A stretch of DNA of 64,000 nucleotides from Xanthomonas hyacinthi (lineage in GTDB: Bacteria > Pseudomonadota > Gammaproteobacteria > Xanthomonadales > Xanthomonadaceae), in NCBI RefSeq assembly GCF_009769165.1, contig NZ_CP043476.1:2177001-2241000 (forward strand), given 5' to 3'. The notes below the pieces were generated by a model. The model ran no database searches. It was given only the letters and a program-made list of their open reading frames with translations, and had not been told where the DNA came from. The position numbers and the translations under genes are program-made. This document shows positions 5,721 through 16,690 of the stretch, piece by piece; positions within the stretch are counted from its first letter, which is position 1, and the number at the start of each line of letters is the position of its first letter.

Positions 5721-5745
5721 CCCGGGTTCGCCCGGGCTTCTTTTT
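5721..5745 (+). terminator. Intrinsic terminator after aceA
   Basis: A 6-bp GC stem CCCGGG-TTCG-CCCGGG with a UUCG tetraloop is followed by CTTCTTTTT. It lies 46 bp downstream of the aceA stop in the same orientation, so it should end the aceBA transcript. Confidence 0.85.
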
Positions 5746-5762
5746 AGATCATTGGCTTTTTG

Positions 5763-6400
5763 AGGGAAGTTGACGCAGGCGTCCCAGTCAATCAGGTATG
5801 CCGGAAGCACGGGTTCAACGAAGCGTCGTACTGCCTGTGGCGCAGCACGTTCGGCGGGCGGTGTGGTCGATGGACTTCGTGTTTGATCGCGCCGCCGATG
5901 GCCGGGTGCCGAAGTGCCTGACCATCGTGGATGACGCGACCAGCGAATGTAGCGTGATCGAGGTGGAACGGGCGATCTCGGGGCAGGGCGTGGCGCAACG
6001 TCTGGCACACAGTCGTGGCCTTCCGAAGGTGATCCGCAGCGACAACGGCAAGGTATTCATCGGCAAGGCAATGGCGATATAGGCGCATGATGCGAAAGTG
6101 GATCCGCGCCTGATCGGGCCGGGCAAGCCGACGAACCAGAATGCCTACGTCGAATCGTTCAATGACCGCTTCCGCGATGAAGGTTTGGACGAGGAAATGA
6201 AATGTTTACCAGATCTGCTGTACGCCCGTGCCGTGATCGAACTCTGGCGGCGCGAGTACAATGAGGAACGAACGACCGCAGAAACGAGTGAATGGATTGA
6301 CGCCTGCGGCCTATGCAAAGCGACTAGCTGCCACAGCAGGTCGAAGAGAAGGTAAAGTAATCTTGGACTCTAAACCTGCCGCTACTGAAAGTGGGAGCGT
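5763..6400 (+). pseudogene. Decayed IS3-family (IS407-like) transposase, orfA and orfB remnants
   Basis: 5763-5855 reads EVDAGVPVNQVCRKHGFNEA then SYCLWRSTFGG, the helix-turn-helix end of an IS3 OrfA. A deletion then joins it to OrfB: VWSMDFVFDRAADGRVPKCL, the catalytic-domain pieces TIVDDAT and PKVIRSDNGKVF, and NQNAYVESFNDRFRDEGLDE with the catalytic Glu. A TAG at 6080-6082 interrupts the frame. A later frameshift near 6265 puts the end (TPAAYAKRLAATAGRREGK) in another frame. Not functional. It lies just downstream of the aceA terminator and marks the start of a region full of mobile-element debris. Confidence 0.85.
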
Positions 6401-6825
6401 CGGCAGGGCGCCAATGAGCGAATGACGCGGCGCGTAGCCCATGCAACGGCCCGGCCGAACAAAGCCAAGGATCTCTCGACGTTGTGCGAAGAGATCGATA
6501 TCAGGTCTGGGCGCTGCTTGATGGGGACTCTGCAGAAGCACGCTCTGATGAGGATGGTTTCAATGGATCCCAGATGGCTAGTCGATGGCCTGATCCAAGA
6601 CCAAAGATACTCGCCGATGTCACTTTTTTTGGGACTAAATTGTTTTTCTGCGCATATTTATCTACAGCAAGCTGGAGCAGAGATGCTCCACCGGTGTTGC
6701 AATTTCCAACCTTGTCAGATGCGTGCGGCGGTAGTCGCTGAAATCTTGGAGTAGATGCCGCCAGGCGATCACGGCGCGCAGTATCAGCTATTGGGGGAAA
6801 GAGCGCGGAGGGGACTCCAGTTCCA
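6401..6825. other. Gap with no recognisable gene
   Basis: About 425 bp between the IS3 remnant and the downstream end of the effector-like gene. Short open frames exist (for example 6484-6741, forward) but none resembles a known protein and none has a good ribosome binding site. GC content falls around 6600-6680, which includes a run of seven T. It is probably decayed mobile-element DNA or the old flank of the transferred gene. Confidence 0.5.
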
Positions 6826-8031
6826 TTACTGGCCTAATAACTCGTCTTGGTAAAGCTGATGGAGGGTAAACTGCTGTTTTACTCCCATTAAGTCGATGCT
6901 GTCTACGTCAGATATTTTCTTGAGACTAACCTTGCGCCCTATGGCTTTTGGAAGGTTCTCAAACGCCCGAAGATCCCGCTCGGCTGCGGCTGGCCTCGCG
7001 ACTCTGTAATCATCGGCTTTCTTCGGCCACATCTCCATCGTTGACAGTGGCAAAAGGCGATATATTGATGAAATCTCGCCATGCAGGGTTAAAGGATCGC
7101 CCGCATCGCCTCTGACTCGACAATATGCATTGTGAAAGTCTTCGCGAGTGGCAAAGGATTGGCCAGCGAGCGCCGAAAGCGCTGCTTTGACAGGCTCCGA
7201 GAAATTTCGCGCATCTTTCCGCCCCGCTTTCCCGATAAGATGACGCAGCAGCTTGTCATCCAAAATAACGGGGCCACGTTTTGGATCACCTCCGACGCCA
7301 TACAAAATTGCACCGCTCTTGCGTCCTCGGTTTGGATCGCCCGCAACTACATAGCCATGCGTGGGAAGCACATACCCGCGCGTGTTCCTGTTGACGTAAT
7401 GAACAGGAACTCTGCGTAACGCCTCAGCCCCGGAAAATTTGAGTGCGTGAAGTACGGTATCAAATGCCTCCCGCTCCTTGCCTTCAGGCAGCGCAGGGAA
7501 TCTGCCTGGATGCCGCGCATCCACAACCCTCCCTTCTTCGTTACATTGGTAGTCGATCGAAGCCATCTTTCCGCCGGAAAAGCGCGCAGCTCGCGTCCAG
7601 CCATCACCTAAATCGAGCGTCGTAGCGTCTGGCTTACCCTTTCCATCAGCCATGAATTCGACGAACGCCCGGACACGAGACTCCGGATTTCGCATGCCCA
7701 AGAGGGATTGGATCTTGTGTCCGATTTTTGCGGCAACTCCCGACGCCTGAGTCCAATCGACACGCTTTTTCTCAGCGTGCAACTTGCTTCGCACCTGCGG
7801 ATCTTCGGCTATCTGCTTGGAGGAAGATATGGACCTTCTACTATCACTTGAGAGAGCGTGTCTCGGCGCTCTACCCAGACCTGCGAGCGTAGAGTGAATA
7901 GCGCTATCGTATCGGCTGGAAGCGCCGACGGTAGCGGAACAAGATGCATGCTGGCCAAGTTCTTCACCAAGATGGTGCGGGACATCCACATTGGCCTTGT
8001 TGTGAAGATTGTGTTCTTTGATAGTGAACAT
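6826..8031 (-). CDS. Orphan protein of unknown function, candidate secreted effector
   Basis: 401 residues with no family I can name. The N-terminal 90 or so residues are polar and rich in Ser, His, Asn and Ala, with no signal peptide (SSDSRRSISSSKQIAEDPQV). This is the composition of many type III effector secretion regions. The rest is a mixed alpha/beta domain with Gly- and Asp-rich stretches (YVVAGDPNRGRKSGAILYGV, GGDPKRGPVILDDKLLRHLI). No membrane segment or coiled coil is seen. Base composition is clearly lower in GC than the surrounding core genes. It sits between a dead IS3 and a MITE-like element plus a dead ISL3, with no operon partner. No plant-inducible promoter box (TTCGC-N15-TTCGC) was found upstream, so secretion is only an inference. 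Confidence 0.55.
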   Translation of the reverse strand: MFTIKEHNLHNKANVDVPHHLGEELGQHASCSATVGASSRYDSAIHSTLAGLGRAPRHALSSDSRRSISSSKQIAEDPQVRSKLHAEKKRVDWTQASGVAAKIGHKIQSLLGMRNPESRVRAFVEFMADGKGKPDATTLDLGDGWTRAARFSGGKMASIDYQCNEEGRVVDARHPGRFPALPEGKEREAFDTVLHALKFSGAEALRRVPVHYVNRNTRGYVLPTHGYVVAGDPNRGRKSGAILYGVGGDPKRGPVILDDKLLRHLIGKAGRKDARNFSEPVKAALSALAGQSFATREDFHNAYCRVRGDAGDPLTLHGEISSIYRLLPLSTMEMWPKKADDYRVARPAAAERDLRAFENLPKAIGRKVSLKKISDVDSIDLMGVKQQFTLHQLYQDELLGQ

Positions 8032-8274
8032 TCGCCAATCCCGGAAAGAGTGAAATTTGTTTCATGACTATCTGGATCTTGCCATGTTACTAAATCCGTC
8101 GATGCAGAGGGATTCTGTCGAGCAGCCTCGCTCCGATTCCGATAGCGATTGTTCAGCGTAGCGTCGCGATCGAGTTGGCCACATGGCGCTGGGCGCGCGA
8201 CAGCCGCGCCACGCGGGGGGTCATTCGCGGGTAAGGCAGGTTTTTGGCGCCGTGACGGTTCTTTTTGATTCTTC

Positions 8275-8561
8275 TCCCACCTAGGGCCTCTGTTAACGCT
8301 ATCGGGCCAGGCCAGGCCACGCCGTGCTTGGGCGCGTAAGCGGCAAGGAAGCGCGAGGGAGCTTATGTCGATAAGCGACCGCGCGATGACGCCGTCGTGT
8401 GCGCGCCCAAGCGCGGCCATTCGGGTTGCCGTGTGCGGCGCCCAGGCGGCCGCGCGTGGCGTGGACAGGCGGCCAGCCTGCCACGGCGCCACGCACCACC
8501 ACCTGAGCGGCGCACACGGCAACGTGGCCTATCCCGATAGCGTTCACGGACCCTAATGGGA
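8275..8561. mobile_element. MITE-like element: imperfect terminal inverted repeats around large hairpins
   Basis: The two ends are inverted copies: the left end (8275-8306) contains GTTAACGCTATCGGG, and the right end (8533-8561) contains its complement with one difference, plus a shared TAGGG block nearer the tip. The similarity continues inward (AGGCCACG). The interior has no gene but forms nested inverted repeats: GCTTGGGCGCG near 8326 pairs with CGCGCCCAAGC near 8402, and TTGCCGTGTGCG near 8428 pairs with CGCACACGGCAA near 8512. This is the layout of a non-autonomous transposable element. No clear target duplication was found. Confidence 0.5.
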
Positions 8562-8620
8562 AAGGCGCACGGCCGACCTTCAGAATTGGCGTTGTCTAGA
8601 TAGCAAAACGGGGATCGGCC

Positions 8621-9140
8621 GTGGCCGCGGTGGATTGTATTGGGCAGTTGAGTAGCTGGGGGGGCATGGTGTCGCGGTTGCGTCTGGCCTGCGCGCACTG
8701 CCGACCGCGTCTGGAGCGCCTGGATTGGCTGGACCGGCATGCCCGCCTCACGCGTTGGCTGGCCGACAATGTGGCGCGGCTGTGCGCGGCGACCACCATC
8801 GTGCATGCCGCGCACTGGTTCGGGCTGGACGGGCAGACGGTGAAGCGGATCGACGTCCAGCACCTGGAGCGGACGCTGGGACCGATTGACCTGAGCGGGG
8901 TGACGGTGCGCGATGGATGAGTACGCGATCCAGAAAGGCCGCCGTCGCGCGACGCTGCTGGTCGAGCCGCAGCGCAAGCGCATGCTGTGGGTGGCCCGAG
9001 GACGTTCCCGGGCCGAGGCGCGCCCGTTCTTCGCGCTGCTGGGACCGCACGGCTGCCACCGTCTGCGTGCCGTGGCGATGGACATAAATGCCGCCTACGA
9101 CTTGGAAGTGAGGCAGCACGGCCCTCCCGGACTTGGGTGA
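8621..9140 (+). pseudogene. Truncated, frameshifted ISL3-family transposase
   Basis: Two overlapping frames together give part of an ISL3 transposase. The first (8621-8920) contains CAHCRPRLERLDWLDRHARL and RWLADNVARLCAATTIVHAA, ending in GPIDLSGVTV. The second (from 8913) continues MDEYAIQKGRRRATLLVEP and HRLRAVAMDINAAYDLEVR, the start of the DDE catalytic core. One frameshift lies near 8917. Both the N-terminal zinc-finger region and the whole C-terminal half are missing. It is inactive. Confidence 0.85.
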
Positions 9141-9372
9141 AGAACTTTTTTTGTCGCGCGGCGGCGCGATTAGCGGCGCCAATGCAGTGTCTACGTGTTG
9201 CGCCAGGCTTGTGCGCCGCATTGTTGCGTGACGGCGGCGGTAGCGATCGATTCCAGGTCTTTTGCGGTCTCTGCTGGATGCGAGATCGGCGGCGACCGCA
9301 CTGTGGGCGCGCTGTTCAGGTGCTATGCTCCGTCCAAGATGGCGGGCCACGCCAGGAGCAGTAGGGGGTTGG

Positions 9373-10419
9373 ATGAGCTGCGACAGCGCCGCGTCCAATG
9401 CACGCGAGACAATTTCGACGGTTGCTGTGGTCGCCCCTAAGCCGAGCGAGCTGGCGGTGCTGACCGCGGCGGAGCTGCGCCTGTTCTCAGAGTTCGGCCG
9501 TTCGCGCACGGTGCGTGCCGGCGACGTGCTGTTCCGGCGCGGCGACGGCGGCAGCGCCATGTTCGTGATCGGCAGCGGTGTGATCGACCTGGATTTCGGC
9601 GAGGACCTGGTGGTCAAGCATCTCGGACATGGCGAGTTTTTCGGCGAACTGGGGCTGTTGATCGGCAGCCACATGCGCAGCGCCGATGCGATCGCCGCCA
9701 GCGACGGCGTGCTGGTCGAACTGGACCACGACGATTTCCAGCGCCTGGTGGAGCGCGACCCGGGCCTGGTCGCCTACTTCCTGCGCCGCACCATCATGCG
9801 CGTGGTGATGAACGAGCAAACCCTGATCCGCCAGCTGCGCCGCCGCAACCACGACCTGGAAGCGGCGTTGGACAATCTCTACGCCACCACCCACCAGCTC
9901 ACCCAGACCGAAGAGCTGGTGCGCACCGATGAACTGACCGGCCTGCACAACCGTCGCGGCCTGATCCTGCGCCTGCAGGAGTGCCGACGCGATGGCCGCT
10001 CGCCCGGGCCGGGCCTGCTGCTGATCGACTGCGACCGCTTCAAGCACATCAACGACGAGCACGGCCACCTGGTCGGCGACCGCGTGTTGCAGAACGTCGC
10101 CAACATCCTGCGTTCCGTCGCCGGCCAGGACGACATCGCCTGCCGCCTAGGCGGCGACGAATTCTGCCTGCTGGTGTCCACCGGCAACGTGCAAGACCTG
10201 CGCCGCATCGGCGAGTTCGTGATCGCCACCGTGCAGAACCTGCTTGGCGTGCCGCATCCCTCGCCGCATATCTGCCCGGTCAGCATCGGCATCAGCCGGG
10301 TCGACCCGCAATCCGACTGGAACGACTGGTACGCCAACGCCGACGCCGCGCTATACGAGGCCAAGCGCCTCGGCGGCAACCGGCTGTACTGGCACGACCT
10401 CGCCTCCGCATCCCAATGA
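9373..10419 (+). CDS. Diguanylate cyclase with an N-terminal cyclic-nucleotide-binding domain
   Basis: Predicted to make c-di-GMP under control of a bound ligand. 348 residues. Residues about 27-145 form a cNMP-binding (CRP-like) domain with the phosphate-binding cassette GEFFGELGLLIGSHMRSADA. A short helical linker (about 150-180, NHDLEAALDNLYATTHQLTQ) leads to a GGDEF domain from about 183 (DELTGLHNRRG). The catalytic motif RLGGDEF is intact. The RxxD inhibitory site five residues upstream is absent, so product inhibition is unlikely. The ATG follows AGGGGG. The next gene, 25 bp downstream, encodes a nucleotide cyclase. That pairing suggests the cyclase product is the ligand for this protein. 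Confidence 0.93.
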   Translation: MSCDSAASNARETISTVAVVAPKPSELAVLTAAELRLFSEFGRSRTVRAGDVLFRRGDGGSAMFVIGSGVIDLDFGEDLVVKHLGHGEFFGELGLLIGSHMRSADAIAASDGVLVELDHDDFQRLVERDPGLVAYFLRRTIMRVVMNEQTLIRQLRRRNHDLEAALDNLYATTHQLTQTEELVRTDELTGLHNRRGLILRLQECRRDGRSPGPGLLLIDCDRFKHINDEHGHLVGDRVLQNVANILRSVAGQDDIACRLGGDEFCLLVSTGNVQDLRRIGEFVIATVQNLLGVPHPSPHICPVSIGISRVDPQSDWNDWYANADAALYEAKRLGGNRLYWHDLASASQ

Positions 10420-10444
10420 CCGTGCGCGCGCCCTCGAGCTGCCC

Positions 10445-12955
10445 ATGAACGACGCTCACCCGCCGCAGCCCGAGGTCCCGCAGCTCCGCACCCTGCTGCT
10501 GACCGACCTGTGCGATTCGATGGCGCTGGTGGAGCGGCTCGGCGACGCCAACGCTGCCGAACTGTTCAAGCTGCACGACGCGCTGGTGCTGGAACTGCAG
10601 CAGCGCTGGCGCGGGCGCCTGATCGACCGTTCCGACGGCCTGCTGCTGCTGTTCGAACGGCCGATCGACGGCCTCGGCTTCGCCCTGGACTACGCCCGCG
10701 GCCTGCACGCGCTGGGCACGCAGCGCAAGCTGGAACTGAAAGTGCGCGCCGGCCTGCACGTCGGCGAGGTGCTGACCTGGCGCAACAGCGACGCCGCGGT
10801 GCAGGTCGGCGCCAAGCCGTTGGAAGTGGAAGGCCTGGCCAAGCCGACCGCGGCGCGGCTGATGACCCTGGCCCGGCCCGGACAGATCCTGCTGTCGGCG
10901 GTGGCCGAGTCGCTGACCCACCGCGCCGCGCGCGAGCTGGGCGAGCGCGGCGAGCGCCTGCTGTGGAAATCGCACGGCCGCTGGCGCTTCAAGGGCGTGC
11001 CGACGGCGCAGGAGATCTACGAAGTCGGCGAGATCGGCAACACCCCGCTGCGCGCGCCGAAGCCGACGCCGAAGGCGTGGCGGGACATCCCGCTGTGGCG
11101 GCGGCCGGCGGCGCTGCTGGCAGAGATCGGCCTGATCGCCGCGGTCGCGGTCGGCGTCTGGTTCGTCACCCGCCCGCAGCCGGCCATCGCGTTCGCCGAG
11201 CGCGACTGGGTGGTGGTGGGGGATCTGCGGAATCTGACTGGCGACGTCGCGCTGGACGACTCGCTGCAACAGGCCTTTCGGATCAGCCTGGAACAGTCGC
11301 GCTACGTCAATGTGCTCAGCGATCTGAAAGTGCGTGAGACCCTTGGGAGAATGCGGCGCGATCCGGAAAACACGGCCCTTAACCGGGAAATCGCATCCGA
11401 AGTCGCCTTGAGGAGCGGCGCGCGTGCGGTGATTCTTCCAACCGTTTCGGAATTCGGCGGTAGGTTGCGGATCAGCGCGGAGGTGGTCGATCCCAGAACC
11501 CAATCCACCGTCTATGCGCAGGTTGCCGATGGCAGGGGCATCGGCTCCGCGTTGGCCTCCGTAGACACGATCACCCATGAGTTGAGACAGAATTTCGGCG
11601 AAGCACTGGAGAACGTGGAGACGGAGTCCATTCCGTTGCCCAAGGTGGCCACCGCCAACCTCGATGCGTTGAGAGCCTATGCACTCGGCCTGGAAGCCTA
11701 TGGCCGATCCAAGCGAGATCAGGCACTGGCGCTGTATCGCCGAGCCGTCGAGCTGGACCCGGGGTTCGCGCTCGCCTACCTAGGGATGCTGAGGGTGTAT
11801 GTCAGCGCCAGCGACAATGCAAATGCCGAGAAGTACCTGCAACTGGCCATGAAACTTCGGGACCGGTTGCCGCCGCGCGACAGGCTCTATCTGGATGCGT
11901 GGAGCGCGGAGTTTTCGGAAAAACCCACAATGAACTCGCCCGAGCGCTGGAAGACGCTGGCCGATATCTATCCCGACTACTACGCGGGGACGGCGAACTA
12001 CGCATGGAGCGCCTTCGTTGCAGGCGACTACGAAGGTGCGTACACGACGGCGCAGCGCGCATCCGTACAGCAGAATCCCTTGCGTGGATTCGCGATCGAC
12101 ACGATGGCGCGCGCGCGATTGGCGGAGAACAACTACGCCTCGGCGCTGGACCTATTTCGTGAAAGCGAAGCGTCGCGCGGCCTGAGCGCAACGCGGCAGA
12201 GGGTCGCGGCACTTGCTGCGATGGGCCGCCTGGACGATGCGGAGAAGCTCCTGAAGTCTCTCTCCAGGCAGGACGCCTTGTCAGAGGCGAACCAGTCTGC
12301 GGGCTTCGAGACGATCAGCATCGCGGTCGACCGGCAGGAATGGAAGGGCGCCCGCCGCACTGCTACGACCTATGCTGAACACTTCAAGTCGCGCAACGAG
12401 CAGGTCTATCAGCAGTTCGTCTTCATGCGGCACTGCGTCGATTTCCTCGCCAGCGGATTCCTGAAGACATCGGAGCTTGAGGCCGGCTATGCGCAGGCGG
12501 TCGCTGCGGCGGCGCGAGCCAATCCGGCGGATCGATCGGATCTGGCCTTCATCGCCCTTAGCTACGCCTATCTCGCGCAGCGCTCGGGAAGCGCAAAGCT
12601 CTACACCGAGCGAGCGGCGCAGATGGAATCCATCACGCGCGCGACGGGCGATAGCAACGTCTCCCAGCTTCTGTCGATCTTGAAGGCAGGCGATCTGCGC
12701 CTAAAAGGAAATTGCGCTGGATCGATCAGTTCGATCAAGGAGCTGCTCTCGGGCCGGGAGATATTCCAGGCACATGTCGCGCTGCGTGATGCCGCAGAGG
12801 CATGCCGGGAAAACGGCCTGGTCGCGCAGCAGAATGCGTGGCTGGAGAAAAACCGCGGACTGGCCTATATCCAGGCCGCGGGGAGTATCGTCATGCAGCC
12901 CTTGAACGTGAGCGATACCAGGGCAAGGCGTGGGGATCGCGTCGCGCTCAACTAA
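10445..12955 (+). CDS. Membrane-anchored class III nucleotide cyclase with TPR-like C-terminus (putative peptide modification system cyclase)
   Basis: 836 residues. Residues 15-190 are a class III adenylate/guanylate cyclase domain: the first metal-binding Asp sits in LLLTDLCDSMALVERLGD (D21), and the second in DRSDGLLLLF (D64). GLHVGEVLTWR and the GLAKPTAARLMTLARPGQIL stretch are typical. One membrane helix at about 221-240 (LLAEIGLIAAVAVGVWFV) places the remaining 590 residues outside the cytoplasm. That part has a TolB-N-like domain followed by TPR-like helices (YALGLEAYGRSKRDQALALY). The size, architecture and neighbours fit the family annotated as 'putative peptide modification system cyclase' beside NHLP-type precursors. 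The base or substrate (ATP or GTP) cannot be told. The start chosen gives a 25-bp gap after the preceding gene. Confidence 0.88.
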   Translation: MNDAHPPQPEVPQLRTLLLTDLCDSMALVERLGDANAAELFKLHDALVLELQQRWRGRLIDRSDGLLLLFERPIDGLGFALDYARGLHALGTQRKLELKVRAGLHVGEVLTWRNSDAAVQVGAKPLEVEGLAKPTAARLMTLARPGQILLSAVAESLTHRAARELGERGERLLWKSHGRWRFKGVPTAQEIYEVGEIGNTPLRAPKPTPKAWRDIPLWRRPAALLAEIGLIAAVAVGVWFVTRPQPAIAFAERDWVVVGDLRNLTGDVALDDSLQQAFRISLEQSRYVNVLSDLKVRETLGRMRRDPENTALNREIASEVALRSGARAVILPTVSEFGGRLRISAEVVDPRTQSTVYAQVADGRGIGSALASVDTITHELRQNFGEALENVETESIPLPKVATANLDALRAYALGLEAYGRSKRDQALALYRRAVELDPGFALAYLGMLRVYVSASDNANAEKYLQLAMKLRDRLPPRDRLYLDAWSAEFSEKPTMNSPERWKTLADIYPDYYAGTANYAWSAFVAGDYEGAYTTAQRASVQQNPLRGFAIDTMARARLAENNYASALDLFRESEASRGLSATRQRVAALAAMGRLDDAEKLLKSLSRQDALSEANQSAGFETISIAVDRQEWKGARRTATTYAEHFKSRNEQVYQQFVFMRHCVDFLASGFLKTSELEAGYAQAVAAAARANPADRSDLAFIALSYAYLAQRSGSAKLYTERAAQMESITRATGDSNVSQLLSILKAGDLRLKGNCAGSISSIKELLSGREIFQAHVALRDAAEACRENGLVAQQNAWLEKNRGLAYIQAAGSIVMQPLNVSDTRARRGDRVALN

Positions 12956-12964
12956 CGGCGTGGC

Positions 12965-13270
12965 TCACTTCTTTCCGATCGATCCCAGGATCTTGCCGGC
13001 TTCGAAGCAATGTGGATTGGTTTGAGACGCATGCGAGGTCAAGTAGGCGCGAAGCTCCTCGGCAGCCCGGATGATCTCCTTCTTGGGCGCAATCTTGTGA
13101 ACGATCAGGCATGGCGGGGCCGGGCAACCTTTCGGCGGTTTGCACCCGATGCTGATGAGAGCATCCAAAGGCGAATTCTTGAACAACTTGCGGAACGTGT
13201 TGTCCGTACTCAATTTTTCCAAAAGCTTTTCTACGACAGCCTGATTCAGCTTTATCGTCTCTGCGGTCAT
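12965..13270 (-). CDS. NHLP-related RiPP precursor peptide A
   Basis: 101 residues from the ATG at 13268-13270, which follows AGGGGAA at 7 bp. An open extension upstream to 13396 has no such site and looks unlike protein. The first 45 residues form a helical leader of the NHLP/Nif11-like kind (LNQAVVEKLLEKLSTDNTFR, then SPLDALISIGC). A Cys/Pro-rich centre follows, GCKPPKGCPAPPC, with Cys at 43, 49 and 54, and a fourth Cys at 88 near the end (TNPHCFEAG). It shares its leader and C-terminal pattern with the second peptide at 14833-15177. It is convergent with the cyclase, 9 bp from its stop, and divergent from the dehydrogenase. Likely the substrate of the locus. The modified residues are not known. 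Confidence 0.82.
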   Translation of the reverse strand: MTAETIKLNQAVVEKLLEKLSTDNTFRKLFKNSPLDALISIGCKPPKGCPAPPCLIVHKIAPKKEIIRAAEELRAYLTSHASQTNPHCFEAGKILGSIGKK

Positions 13271-13522
13271 ATTAATTCCCCTGTAGTTAATGATACTGCT
13301 GCGCGCGTCGGACACTGCGGTGTATCCTGTCGCGGGCCTCAGCTTAGCATGCGAGTCGTTGGAGAGGCGTGGCGCGCATGCGCATAAATAGAACAAAATC
13401 AGGCAGATGCGTCATGGGGCTTCAGGGGTGGTCGTAGGTGTGGCTGTAATGTGCAGTCCATATCTATTTGCTCTCAAATAAATATATATCATAAATAAGT
13501 ATTATTAAAAATCGAGATTTAT
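13271..13522. promoter_or_regulatory. Divergent promoter region between precursor A and the dehydrogenase
   Basis: 252 bp without a gene. The last 70 bp (about 13455-13522) are strikingly AT-rich for this genome, with runs such as AAATAAATATATATCATAAA, and must hold the dehydrogenase promoter. The dehydrogenase start has only a weak ribosome binding site (CGAGA). No operator palindrome or CRP-type site (TGTGA-N6-TCACA) was recognised. Confidence 0.45.
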
Positions 13523-14698
13523 ATGAAAATACGGCGTTGTGCTGTGGTCTATTTTGAAAGCAGGGAAGATGCCGCTTTCAGCCTGGAATCAATACTTCAA
13601 GGTGGGGATGGTCTGGTACGCACCAAGCGTTGGCTCGCATTGGCTGCTCATCTGGACGAGGAAACCGAAGTCAGCCCGCTCGAAATGGCGCTGCTCGGAA
13701 CGATGAGCGCTCATCAGTGGATATCGAGCGAACAAATAAGTTTCCACCCCGAGGAGTTGGTGGTTGGTCTTCTGCAAAAGGGGCTGTTGGTGAGCGATGG
13801 CAGAAAATACGCCGCTCACCAGCAGCGCGACGAATCGATACGTTCGGTGCATTGGTGGCCTGCCGCTGCGTTGATGCAACGTCTCAGCCGCTGGCGTGGC
13901 CTGGACAGCGCAGCCGCGATGGAAGCAGGAGGTATGGCGACGGCTGCGGATCTGTGTGCAAAGTTGGGAGCGCCCCCCTCGGAAAATCATTCTTTGACAG
14001 ACCCGAGTCGCCGCGTTCCGCTGGCGCGCCAAGCAGGGAACTCGTTCGACGCTCTGTTGGCCAGAAGATCGACGTGTCGGAATTTCGACCAGGTTCGATC
14101 GGTCTCCGGCGAGTTGCTTTCCCACATGCTGCAAAGAGTGCTGATGGCGCAGGCGTTGGTTCGCGTGGAGAACGAAGCGACCTTTCTGAAAAAGAACGTC
14201 CCTTCGGGCGGCGGCCTACATCCGACCGAGGCGTATCTGATCGTGCAGAACGTCGATGGCATTGCACCAGGAATCTACCATTACCATCCGGTCGATCATG
14301 CACTGGAGCCGATGGCGATCGAGTATCGCGCGCTACCTGACCTGTCGAGAGAAGCGCTGGCTGGCCAGTACTGGTTCTCCAATGCGCCTGTGCTCATGGT
14401 TCTCACTACGCGCTTTGAGCGAAGTTTCTGGAAGTACCGACGGCATGCGAAGGCATATCGCGCCACTATCCTCGATGTCGGGCATATCGCTCAGACACTC
14501 TATCTCAGCGCGACCGAGCTTGGCTTGGGGGCATTCGTCACCTCGGCGATCAACGAAGTGGACATCGAAATGCGGTTGGGTTTGAATCCGATGGAAGAGG
14601 GCGTGATGGCCATATGCGGATTCGGGTGGCGTGCGGATCATATGGAGACGAGCGAATTCGATCCTCTGCACGAGGTATGGATCGAAAAGCAAGCATGA
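13523..14698 (+). CDS. SagB-like flavin-dependent peptide maturation dehydrogenase
   Basis: 391 residues. Residues 1-170 form a poorly conserved N-terminal part that may bind the peptide leader. Residues about 175-390 are a nitroreductase-fold SagB-type domain: FMN-binding ARRSTCRNFDQVRS, the signature VPSGGGLHPTEAYLIVQNV, PGIYHYHPVDHALEPM, and DVGHIAQTLYLSATELGLGA. SagB enzymes oxidise azoline rings in thiazole/oxazole peptides, but no YcaO cyclodehydratase is encoded nearby, so the reaction here may differ. It lies between the two precursor genes, which both run the opposite way. This matches the family annotated as 'putative peptide maturation dehydrogenase' in Xanthomonas and Lysobacter. 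Confidence 0.88.
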   Translation: MKIRRCAVVYFESREDAAFSLESILQGGDGLVRTKRWLALAAHLDEETEVSPLEMALLGTMSAHQWISSEQISFHPEELVVGLLQKGLLVSDGRKYAAHQQRDESIRSVHWWPAAALMQRLSRWRGLDSAAAMEAGGMATAADLCAKLGAPPSENHSLTDPSRRVPLARQAGNSFDALLARRSTCRNFDQVRSVSGELLSHMLQRVLMAQALVRVENEATFLKKNVPSGGGLHPTEAYLIVQNVDGIAPGIYHYHPVDHALEPMAIEYRALPDLSREALAGQYWFSNAPVLMVLTTRFERSFWKYRRHAKAYRATILDVGHIAQTLYLSATELGLGAFVTSAINEVDIEMRLGLNPMEEGVMAICGFGWRADHMETSEFDPLHEVWIEKQA

Positions 14699-14786
14699 AC
14701 AGCGTGAGCTCGGGTGGAGAGCGCGCGGAGATCTGGATTCGGCAAGATGGTATGCCAGCCGCGAGCCTTGACGATCTGATATGAGC

Positions 14787-14814
14787 AGCCCGGCGAGCCG
14801 ATGCCCGCCGGGCT
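14787..14814. terminator. Hairpin between dehydrogenase and precursor B
   Basis: A 9-bp GC-rich stem (AGCCCGGCG pairing with CGCCGGGCT) with a 10-nt loop lies between the convergent ends of the dehydrogenase and precursor B. There is no strong T-run on either side, so it is a weak or factor-assisted terminator at best. Confidence 0.45.
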
Positions 14815-14832
14815 TACCTTGCGAGATCGTTT

Positions 14833-15177
14833 CTAGTTGCTGGCCTTCAGGAGCTTCTTGGACACTTGCCCGGATTCAAAATAATGAGGATTCTGGAACA
14901 CGCTGCTCGATGTCAGGTAGCTATAAAGATGAGCTTTCGACGCATTCAATTCATCCTTCGATGCCAGCGATTTGACGGTCATGCAGAAGTTGGAGCTTCC
15001 TTTTTCTGGATAAACTCCGATGAGTGAAAGCGCTGTAATCGGATCCTCTTCAAACTTGGCCCTGAAACCGTCGTCTTCGGCAAGCAACGACAACAATTTC
15101 GAGGCTTGAACGTCGCTCAATTGATTTAAAGATTTACGTGCATCCTTCGTCTGTGAAAATTTCATTTCAGAGTGCAT
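14833..15177 (-). CDS. NHLP-related RiPP precursor peptide B
   Basis: 114 residues with AAGGTGAACC directly before the ATG at 15175-15177; a second Met at position 5 is possible. The layout parallels precursor A: helical leader (SLNQLSDVQASKLLSLLAED), the pattern DPITALSLIGVYPEKG matching SPLDALISIGCKPPKG, and a C-terminal block (SVFQNPHYFESGQVSKKLL) matching QTNPHCFEAGKIL. It has only one Cys (C65, in SSNFCMTVKS), against four in precursor A, so the two products would be modified differently. The gene is convergent with the dehydrogenase. An IS30-family element lies about 130 bp upstream and could affect its promoter. Confidence 0.8.
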   Translation of the reverse strand: MHSEMKFSQTKDARKSLNQLSDVQASKLLSLLAEDDGFRAKFEEDPITALSLIGVYPEKGSSNFCMTVKSLASKDELNASKAHLYSYLTSSSVFQNPHYFESGQVSKKLLKASN

Positions 15178-15310
15178 GGTTCACCTTATCCTTTCGATTG
15201 AAGTGTATTTCGCTACCGGGGTTCCTTGCTGAAGCCATCCATCGCACACGCTGTTGGTGCTTTTTCGACATTAGCATAAATTCTAGGCGCCTCATGCTTC
15301 CCTTGGCAGA

Positions 15311-16373
15311 CTCAACTTCCAAGTGCAACACCTGACAGAGCGTAGGGTGTTGCGATGGGAAGACAGTACAGTCATCTGAGTAGTGAGGAACGCGCGGTGC
15401 TTCAGGTCGAACGCGATCGGGGAACGAGTCTTCGTGGGATCGGTCGCCGCCTGGGGCGTAGCGCATCGACGCTGAGCCGCGAGATCCGGCGTCTGGACAG
15501 CGGCGTGTACTCGGCGCATGCGGCAGCCCTGGTGTATCGATCGCGGCGATCGCGCAGCGTACGAGCACGCAGGCTGATCGCGGGCGCGGTGCTGTTCGAG
15601 TTCGTCCACGACCGTCTTGTGTTCGATCGCTGGTCGCCGCAGCAGATCGCGGCCACACTGCGGGACATGCATCCAGACGACGCCAGCCAGCGGGTCAGTC
15701 ACGAGACGATCTACGCGGCCATCTACGCGCATCCGCGCGGCGGCCTGAAGCAGGCCCTGGTCGATGCATTGCGCCAGAGCAAGCCCACGCGAGGCCGCAG
15801 GCGCACCACAGCAGCGGCGCGCACCTGGGTACCGGAGGAGCTGCGCATCGTGCATCGGCCCGAAGCGGTGGAACAGCGCCTGCTGCCGGGGCATTGGGAG
15901 GGCGACCTGATCAAGGGCGCGTTCAACCGGTCCTGCGTGGGCACGCTGGTCGAGCGCAAGACACGCTTCGTGGTGCTGTGCAGGATGGATGGCTGCACCG
16001 CGGACGCCGCGCTGGAAGGCTTCACTCGCCAGATGAAGAAGCTGCCGGCCTTCCTGCGCGAGAGCCTGACCTACGACCGCGGAACGGAACTGACCTGTTA
16101 CGAGGAGCTGATGCGACGGTTGAACATCGACGTGTGGTTCGCCGATCCGTATGCGCCGTGGCAGCGGGGCAGCAACGAGAACACCAATGGCCTGCTGCGC
16201 CAGTTCCTGCCCAAGGGCGTGGACTTGTCGCAAGCGAGCCAGGAGTACCTCAATCACGTCGCCAAGCTGATGAATGGGCGTCCTCGCCAGACATTAGGCT
16301 GGGCCACGCCGGCAGCGGCCATGGAGAAGGAAATCCTCGCCTTCAAATCACGTGTTGCACTTGATTCTTGAGA
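15311..16373 (+). mobile_element. IS30-family insertion sequence, apparently intact
   Basis: Imperfect inverted repeats containing AAGTGCAACAC-TGA flank one transposase gene (left about 15312-15334, right about 16346-16370). It lies between precursor B of the peptide-modification locus and a fragment of a SulP gene, so it may mark a rearrangement point. Exact ends and target duplication could not be fixed by eye. Confidence 0.8.
15355..16371 (+). CDS. IS30-family transposase
   Basis: 338 residues, full length. The N-terminal helix-turn-helix (YSHLSSEERAVLQVERDRGT, SLRGIGRRLGRSASTLSREI) is followed by the DDE domain: WEGDLIKGAFNRSCVGTLVE with the first Asp, YDRGTELTCYEELMRRL with the second, and WQRGSNENTNGLLRQFLPKG with the Glu. 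The terminal PRQTLGWATPAAAM is the usual IS30 ending. No frameshift is seen, so the element could be active. Confidence 0.95.
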   Translation: MGRQYSHLSSEERAVLQVERDRGTSLRGIGRRLGRSASTLSREIRRLDSGVYSAHAAALVYRSRRSRSVRARRLIAGAVLFEFVHDRLVFDRWSPQQIAATLRDMHPDDASQRVSHETIYAAIYAHPRGGLKQALVDALRQSKPTRGRRRTTAAARTWVPEELRIVHRPEAVEQRLLPGHWEGDLIKGAFNRSCVGTLVERKTRFVVLCRMDGCTADAALEGFTRQMKKLPAFLRESLTYDRGTELTCYEELMRRLNIDVWFADPYAPWQRGSNENTNGLLRQFLPKGVDLSQASQEYLNHVAKLMNGRPRQTLGWATPAAAMEKEILAFKSRVALDS

Positions 16374-16517
16374 CCGCCCTTTCTATGCTGAGTGAAGAAC
16401 GAGTTCATGCCGCCCGGCTTTGTTTCGGTCGAGGCGGCGTTTCGTACAAGGGCTCGATCTCGGTGCGAACGTGCAGCAGAGTTGGGAACCAAATGTTCGT
16501 TGAGGCCCCCACGGGCT

Positions 16518-16690
16518 GGCGAATACCACCAGTATCAGCAGCACGCTGCCGGCGATCAGCGCCGACAGACGACCGCGGTCGCCGGACTTCACCTTGATCA
16601 CCGATGGGCCGATCATCGCGCAGCCGGCCATGTCGCCGATCAGCCCGCTGGCGATGTTGGTGGTACCTGGGCGATGTATTCCGCTGCCCC
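16518..16690 (-). pseudogene. Fragment of a SulP transporter gene
   Basis: The reverse strand encodes [20 protein letters not shown] then SVIKVKSGDRGRLSALIAGS. This is nearly the same as part of the complete SulP gene at 18438-20060 ([20 protein letters not shown], then [20 protein letters not shown]). Only about 170 bp are present, and the fragment ends abruptly beside the DUF2884 gene. It is probably a scar of duplication or recombination rather than a gene. Confidence 0.8.

Follow-up and report, generated by a model that had tools for sequence, protein, structure and literature searches.

A peptide precursor, a flavin dehydrogenase and the outer domain of a guanylyl cyclase co-diversify beside the cGMP/c-di-GMP relay genes of Xanthomonas hyacinthi and its relatives: a candidate polymorphic peptide-signal system

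In Xanthomonas campestris 8004, two linked genes form a relay from cyclic GMP (cGMP) to cyclic di-GMP (c-di-GMP). The first, XC_0250, encodes a guanylyl cyclase whose tetratricopeptide repeat (TPR) domain was termed uncharacterised when the relay was described (An et al. 2013, PMC3770947; structure deposit 4KG1) and was still so termed in a 2019 review (PMC8042644). The second, XC_0249, joins a cyclic nucleotide (cNMP)-binding domain to a GGDEF domain and makes more c-di-GMP upon binding cGMP, and mutants in either gene formed less biofilm and were reduced in virulence (PMC3770947). The sections of that paper considered here describe the relay without a peptide, a dehydrogenase or any input signal, and a term search of its whole main text returned neither the word 'peptide' nor the word 'dehydrogenase' (PMC3770947). 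Here, we analysed the corresponding locus of Xanthomonas hyacinthi, which occupies positions 9373-15177 of a 64,000-nucleotide stretch (NZ_CP043476.1, 2,177,001-2,241,000; hereafter the window) and in which the two cyclase genes stand together with two precursors of a peptide resembling ribosomally synthesised and post-translationally modified peptides (RiPPs) of the nitrile hydratase-like leader peptide (NHLP) type, and with a SagB-like flavin mononucleotide (FMN) dehydrogenase. We are close to certain that the TPR domain, the peptide and the dehydrogenase constitute a block that diversifies together and is exchanged as such. The locus is probably, though by no clear margin, a peptide-signal system of the polymorphic ('pherotype') kind that feeds into the known relay.

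The two cyclases compare closely with those of X. campestris. In both species a gene for a class III cyclase with a TPR domain adjoins a gene for a cNMP-GGDEF protein, and the residues shown to touch cGMP in X. campestris (F73, E90, H98, N145 and E146; PMC3770947) have identical counterparts in the window (F75, E92, H100, N147 and E148). Our comparison covers 101 loci, namely the window and 100 neighbourhoods of at most 20 kb each from 24 genera, with one genome per species; they were hand-picked among the best matches listed to cover genera, and low-scoring members are absent. The five contact residues are kept in 100, 100, 100, 97 and 100 of 100 homologues, the 101st copy (L119) being gapped. 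The diguanylate cyclase of the window scores 66.6 bits against cNMP_binding and 129.1 bits against GGDEF, with the GGDEF motif intact. A solved cNMP domain with this Asn-Glu pair, PDB 5h5o, shares 96% identity with the copy of one sampled locus (L082) and 64% with that of the window.

In the guanylyl cyclase, both metal-binding Asp residues that the original prediction for this DNA had noticed (D21 and D64) are found in 101/101 homologues, and the position of the transition-state Asn aligns with Pro134, likewise in 101/101. A dead cyclase, as the Asn-to-Pro134 change might suggest, was not adopted, because the orthologous domain produced cGMP in vitro (PMC3770947). The Arg position (residue 138) holds Arg in 101/101 sequences of our alignment; the published account puts both positions as substituted (Leu, Ala) (PMC3770947). 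A fold search with the whole cyclase model returned, among the matches listed, mostly cyclase domains and otherwise three chains of TPR proteins of the anaphase-promoting complex (APC/C), and barely probed the outer domain. Judged from sequence, the two-cyclase wiring of the window would be the known relay, guanylyl cyclase activity and cGMP-stimulated c-di-GMP synthesis having been demonstrated in X. campestris only. That the cyclase would make a cNMP and its neighbour would turn the signal into c-di-GMP had been predicted for the window and was already published for XC_0250/XC_0249 (PMC3770947). Of the signalling layout that had been put forward as new, one half, from cyclase to c-di-GMP, thus dates from 2013 (PMC3770947), and the other half, the sensing of a peptide, gains new indirect support here.

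That support comes from the way in which the locus varies. Between the window and 17 relatives of its own genus, the transmitter half is highly similar (diguanylate cyclase 91-97%, cyclase domain 92-98% identity), and identity in the recognition half falls to 23-37% for the TPR part, 27-57% for the dehydrogenase and 17-46% for the two peptides. From pairwise identity tables we assigned, by hand, six types to the 18 own-genus loci: A (L064, L066, L069), B (L065, L067, L068, L070-L072), C (L073), D (L074-L076), E (L077-L080) and F (the window). The type is independent of the similarity of the cyclase domain; L066 and L075, for example, share 99% identity in the cyclase domain and 43% in the outer domain.

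The contrast between the two halves is also seen in the DNA. In a blastn comparison of type pairs among the 17 own-genus relatives, with the window outside, the 109 different-type pairs matched at about 90% identity over 100% of the upstream 1 kb and over 100% of cyclase codons 8-250; the matched share was a median of 88% (27-100) over codons 251-400, 0% (0-13) over TPR codons 401-836 and 26% (0-69) from the end of the cyclase to the end of the dehydrogenase. The 27 same-type pairs matched over 100% of the upstream kilobase and of all three codon ranges; between the end of the cyclase and that of the dehydrogenase, their median was 100% (78-100). In single own-genus pairs, the DNA match ends +1.05 to +1.25 kb into the cyclase gene and resumes within or beyond the dehydrogenase. 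The own-genus breakpoints thus lie inside the cyclase gene, in or just behind the alpha/beta part of the outer domain.

The same transition appears beyond the genus. For this comparison and for the correlations and pair counts below we used 92 of the 101 loci, setting aside six two-peptide loci including the window, L154 (without peptide and dehydrogenase), L119 (broken diguanylate cyclase) and one locus with a dehydrogenase fragment; the sets of 146, 35 and 189 locus pairs were all drawn from these 92, so the window is outside them. Protein identity, averaged over 146 pairs of unlike type that span several genera, reaches 90-100% in 10 of the 13 windows of twenty residues that cover the protein as far as residue 260, the exceptions being residues 1-20 and 81-100 (82% each) and the membrane helix (64%). 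It declines over residues 260-420 and amounts to 11-48% from residue 421 on, with the lowest values (11-30%) in the windows of TPR residues 601-700. The drop therefore spans the alpha/beta part and, on the structural model, its junction with the predicted TPR superhelix. Identity between TPR domains is distributed bimodally, and a line at 60% yields 73 TPR types among the 101 loci. Base composition changes as well: the GC content at third codon positions is 76 in the outer domain and 64 in the dehydrogenase of the window, against 93 in the cyclase domain and 88 in the diguanylate cyclase, and it is lower in the outer domain than in the cyclase domain in 84/101 loci.

Is the outer domain tied to the peptide and the enzyme more closely than to the cyclase domain encoded in its own gene? 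In Spearman correlations of pairwise identity, the TPR part followed the dehydrogenase at 0.68 and the peptide at 0.58, the dehydrogenase followed the peptide at 0.61, and the cyclase domain followed the peptide at 0.19. In partial Mantel tests that controlled for the cyclase domain and the diguanylate cyclase, the first three were 0.64, 0.54 and 0.57 (p 0.001 each), and the correlation of cyclase domain and peptide given the diguanylate cyclase was 0.03 (p 0.32). The TPR-peptide correlation persisted with the dehydrogenase also controlled (0.27, p 0.001). With types delimited at 70% identity, TPR and peptide types agree in 183 of the 189 pairs whose cyclase domains are 90% or more identical; of the six exceptions, three are borderline (peptide identity 67-69%) and three share peptide and dehydrogenase with TPR parts 46-52% alike. 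From this agreement it follows that the join between cyclase domain and TPR domain, within one gene, has been broken repeatedly, and the join between TPR domain and peptide, across two genes, rarely. The approximately unbiased (AU) test rejected types B, D and E as clades (p 3.5e-5, 0.0012 and 4.2e-8) on the transmitter tree, whose bootstrap had yet to converge, and all three occur on both sides of the tree's one starred split (100/99).

The module itself is widespread. The original prediction had taken the five genes as one unit and given three family numbers for it. Each of the five genes was confirmed, with the family membership predicted; TIGR04509, TIGR04510 and TIGR04511 were given correctly, each match being far above its curated hidden Markov model cut-off (34, 400 and 240 bits, respectively), and the layout is not a chance one, as it recurs in the sampled loci of 24 genera. 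A single operon is ruled out, both precursors being oriented against the other three genes. In 101/101 loci the diguanylate cyclase gene precedes the cyclase gene in the same orientation (broken in L119), the peptide 3' of the cyclase and convergent with it in 100/101, and the dehydrogenase is present in 100/101, so that all four genes stand together in 100/101 sampled neighbourhoods; distances in our gene-order table are approximate, being based on stop-to-stop frames. In L077-L080, L129 and L157 the orientation of the dehydrogenase is reversed. On the upstream side, malate synthase and a LysR-type regulator are found in 95/101 loci and isocitrate lyase in 89/101; the module is thus at one fixed site, behind the malate synthase/isocitrate lyase genes, in most loci, and the types differ within a constant setting. 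Among 296 genomes drawn from the family, TIGR04510 exceeded its cut-off in 189 and, counted separately, TIGR04511 in 188. A draw at the level of the order, own family included, gave the module over cut-off in 32/151 genomes, with the cyclase over cut-off in four other families, and a class-wide search for the dehydrogenase (E 1e-40) gave 3/274, all in the own family and including the genome of the window. Twelve of the stretches examined from other families contain a full cyclase; in these the peptide was present in 12/12, the dehydrogenase in 11/12 and the diguanylate cyclase in 9/12. A lack of conserved co-occurrence of the diguanylate cyclase gene had been named as one ground for refuting the original prediction, and this check did not refute it: the gene is present in all 101 sampled loci. 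Outside them it is not universal, being absent from 3/12 other-family stretches and from one further stretch of the own family (L195).

Several unusual arrangements were seen on the way. L154, which has a diguanylate cyclase and no peptide or dehydrogenase, is a possible receiver-only locus. L196 carries two full cyclase-peptide-dehydrogenase sets in tandem behind one diguanylate cyclase. L195 (4726-11131) departs from the usual order: five peptide genes follow one another in tandem at spacings of about 400 bases, then come dehydrogenase and cyclase, and the stretch has no diguanylate cyclase. Open frames in L194 (12240-14357) and L207 (2357-5281) resemble the guanylyl cyclase in its membrane helix and outer domain alone, lack the cyclase domain, and could be exchange relics or decoy receptors. 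In 26/101 loci the module has a prolyl-oligopeptidase (S9) gene as a neighbour, on one side or the other and at a median gap of 187 bases; the enzyme might be a peptide-degrading or processing partner.

How might such a block work? We propose that the precursor peptide would be oxidised by the SagB-like flavoenzyme and leave the cytoplasm through an exporter encoded elsewhere. The mature product would then be read by the periplasmic outer domain of the type-matched guanylyl cyclase, consisting of the TPR superhelix and an alpha/beta part that we take to be TolB-like. Peptide binding would alter cGMP synthesis, and cGMP would occupy the cNMP domain of the neighbour, raising c-di-GMP, which would govern biofilm formation and traits connected with it. 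TPR domain, peptide and dehydrogenase, as the recognition half, would diversify and be replaced as a block by recombination inside the cyclase gene, with the transmitter half remaining fixed. The periplasmic position of the TPR domain is suggested by its place C-terminal of the single membrane helix. Since covariation of peptide, modifying enzyme and sensor part on a fixed transmitter is characteristic of pherotype systems, among them ComQXPA of Bacillus, the mature, modified peptide is most likely the cognate ligand of the outer domain. The co-diversification and block exchange of the outer domain with peptide and dehydrogenase lend indirect support to the original suggestion that this domain senses the peptide; modification, export, peptide binding and cognate specificity are all steps that we infer from sequence. 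We regard a more specific version as evenly balanced between right and wrong: the Xanthomonadaceae would have a pheromone system of dozens of dialects, an NHLP-type peptide modified by the flavoenzyme would gate a receptor guanylyl cyclase as its ligand, and the dialects would be swapped between species through recombination within the receptor gene.

A number of observations weigh against a peptide signal read by a matched receptor, or against the exchange that we derive it from. Export is the weakest step: a scan of 30 proteins encoded around the module in five loci (the window, L065, L082, L089 and L120) found no peptide exporter, and no signal sequence is visible in the precursors. In 16 of the 189 pairs the dehydrogenase type is shared without the TPR type, in 13 of them the dehydrogenase type only, and in the pairs L155/L163 and L156/L163, outside the 189, the TPR parts are shared (74-75%) with peptides 28-32% identical. 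Locus pairs are statistically non-independent, and type A was not rejected as a clade (AU p 0.39) on the same unsettled tree. With one genome sampled per species, the types compared are those of different species, and old shared polymorphism is possible in place of recent exchange. The block could be co-inherited by hitch-hiking, and the fixed chromosomal site may account for part of the linkage without any function. The region 0.2-2 kb beyond the dehydrogenase is matched over a median of 60% in different-type and 56% in same-type pairs, and since this flank is variable in both sets, the 3' edge of the block is less sharp than the 5' edge. The A-helices of TPR domains usually line the ligand groove; here, contrary to expectation, they are no more variable than the B-helices (33% versus 26% cross-type identity). 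Finally, neither peptide nor dehydrogenase accompanies the diguanylate cyclase and the 842-aa open cyclase frame of L154, and three stretches of other families (L201, L206 and L208), like L195, have no diguanylate cyclase.

An unlikely alternative, which nevertheless keeps some force, is antagonism, in which the peptide would be an antibacterial made with the help of the dehydrogenase and detected or neutralised by the outer domain, the producers adapting their surface via c-di-GMP and an arms race driving the diversity. Matched sets exchanged as blocks, second peptides (6/101 loci) and the tandem sets and peptides of L196 and L195 would also suit a toxin/immunity locus, and some NHLP-type peptides are bioactive. 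Against this, the module has no other constant gene, the 30 flanking proteins just described include no peptide exporter, the sole partner that covaries with peptide and enzyme is a signalling receptor, and the output of the relay in X. campestris is the regulation of biofilm and virulence (PMC3770947). We give still less credit to phage or host recognition as the force that makes the outer domain polymorphic, peptide and dehydrogenase merely lying inside the exchanged segment. Variation is greatest in the TPR part, which would suit an exposed target, and recombination tracts can carry neighbours; yet a periplasmic domain is not directly exposed, peptide and dehydrogenase, which are not surface parts, diverge into the same discrete types, and the TPR-peptide correlation survives control for the dehydrogenase. 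Similarly improbable is a TPR domain that serves as a maturation or export scaffold and docks the peptide during processing, with cGMP only reporting or gating the process: the NCBI name of TIGR04510, 'peptide modification system cyclase', points that way, the peptide N-terminus is leader-like and a match of peptide and TPR domain would be needed in either case, but the predicted topology puts the TPR domain in the periplasm, a flavin dehydrogenase that lacks a signal sequence would be expected to work in the cytoplasm, and a scaffold has no need of a cyclase or a c-di-GMP partner.

If the locus is indeed a peptide-signal system, the allelic pattern names a candidate input for the cGMP virulence and biofilm pathway, that is, the neighbouring peptide in the form set by the flavoenzyme, together with the matching TPR reader. 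It would join cGMP signalling to an orphan RiPP family, two subjects that our literature search found nowhere together; that search, with most subscription papers and preprints outside it, returned no paper linking the XC_0250 relay with a RiPP or peptide signal. Communication groups would then cross species lines in a family with many plant-associated species, and matched and mismatched peptide-TPR pairs would provide a natural test matrix.

With regard to the peptide, the whole 4.96 Mb genome of the window contains two copies of TIGR04509 and one each of TIGR04510 and TIGR04511. The start of precursor 1 is most likely at 13270 (MTAETIK, with an AGGGGA-type ribosome site 5' of the start), which corrects the earlier placement at 13396. 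The Cys-rich stretch that had been noticed in one precursor is GCKPPKGCPAPPC of precursor 1 and is not found in precursor 2. By a rough cut, 89/106 peptides have Cys between the leader and the C-terminal helix, and these residues are possible candidates for the oxidation target of the dehydrogenase. Precursor 1 matches the nitrile hydratase-like leader family TIGR03793 only weakly (E 0.14, under the cut-off), and the best PDB matches of the predicted precursor fold include nitrile hydratases and proteusin precursors, though at E 2-10. The nearest relatives of precursor 2 are the type D peptides (43-48% identity). Short peptides occur in L077-L080, L129 and L157, of which five end in FCR and that of L157 in VFKA. 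Crp/Clp-like palindromes with at most two mismatches were found in 11/94 peptide-dehydrogenase intergenic regions versus about three in shuffles; this weak signal would allow for a feedback via the c-di-GMP-responsive Clp. In the dehydrogenase, which also matches TIGR03605 (130 bits), the KY motif and two Arg, residues with a catalytic role, are kept in 99/100. A search of the whole genome for YcaO (PF02624) gave no match, the same search being positive in 5/14 control genomes; a peptide of the azoline/thiazole class was ruled out on this ground, and the substrate of the dehydrogenase should therefore differ from a YcaO-made azoline. The genome has eight C39 peptidase genes, none within the module.

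The window differs from its relatives in its surroundings as well. An insertion of about 3.4 kb (5744-9145), absent from L065 and L080, lies directly 5' of the diguanylate cyclase. Within the insertion are a fragment of an ISL3-type transposase (8600-8917) and, on the minus strand, a low-GC gene of 401 aa (6826-8031) for which NCBIfam, Pfam and PHROGs gave no significant match. An IS30 copy (15355-16371) lies between the second peptide and the conserved flank, which in L065 follows directly after the dehydrogenase and in the window only after the second peptide and the IS30-family insertion (14833-16682). No relics of another cassette were found beside the second peptide or in the upstream insertion.

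Table 1. Features of the Xanthomonas hyacinthi locus, in positions of the window
Feature	Position	Strand	Basis
Predicted cGMP-responsive diguanylate cyclase (cNMP-binding + GGDEF), XC_0249 orthologue, conserved transmitter	9373..10419	+	PF00027 + PF00990, ATG start
Membrane guanylyl cyclase, TIGR04510, XC_0250 orthologue	10445..12955	+	1142 bits, ATG start; AlphaFold2 mean pLDDT (predicted local distance difference test) 89
Class III cyclase domain, residues 13-196, conserved part	10481..11032	+	alignment, AlphaFold2
Single transmembrane helix, residues 220-241, predicted N-in/C-out	11102..11167	+	AlphaFold2 helix; positive-inside reading by eye
Alpha/beta part of outer domain, residues 254-394	11204..11626	+	AlphaFold2
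TPR superhelix of outer domain, residues 406-835, type-specific	11660..12949	+	AlphaFold2, identity tables
5' edge of exchanged block in the window	11493..11697	+	long DNA match stops at 11493 versus L080, at 11697 versus L065
NHLP-related RiPP-like peptide precursor 1, 101 aa	12965..13270	-	TIGR04509, 82 bits
AT-rich divergent promoter region, precursor 1/dehydrogenase	13271..13522		intergenic sequence
SagB-like FMN peptide dehydrogenase, TIGR04511	13523..14698	+	541 bits
Second peptide precursor, 114 aa, additional copy behind dehydrogenase	14833..15177	-	TIGR04509, 79 bits
DNA match to relatives' downstream flank resumes	16682		versus L065; one base earlier versus L080

How does the locus relate to other known systems? 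The window proteins are full members of TIGR04509, TIGR04510 and TIGR04511, but these family names omit the diguanylate cyclase, give no function and are silent on allelic exchange. With the SagB/McbC dehydrogenases of thiazole/oxazole-modified microcins, the dehydrogenase shares the nitroreductase-like FMN fold and the KY and Arg motifs; unlike those pathways, the genome of the window has no match to a YcaO cyclodehydratase. The clustered peptidase-type ATP-binding cassette (ABC) exporter of NHLP/proteusin RiPP clusters was likewise not found at the module, within the 30 flanking proteins of the five loci named above. RRNPP receptors (Rap, Rgg, PlcR, PrgX) are cytosolic TPR proteins that bind re-imported peptides; here, too, a TPR domain is proposed as the reader of a peptide signal, but by its predicted topology it would lie outside the inner membrane, and it is joined to a cyclase. 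If gated by a peptide, the relay would be the only such bacterial route from cGMP to c-di-GMP known to us. The closest likeness is to ComQXPA of Bacillus, where a modifying enzyme, a peptide and a receptor with a variable sensor part and a conserved cytoplasmic domain (ComP) fall into discrete specificity types (PMC4008528). The locus described here would differ from it in having a flavoenzyme, an NHLP-type peptide of predicted activity, a single-pass TPR cyclase and a second-messenger output, all in a Gram-negative bacterium. The relay itself was already known; what is new, and in our view the main finding, is its allelic structure, in which matched sets of peptide, enzyme and outer domain are exchanged.

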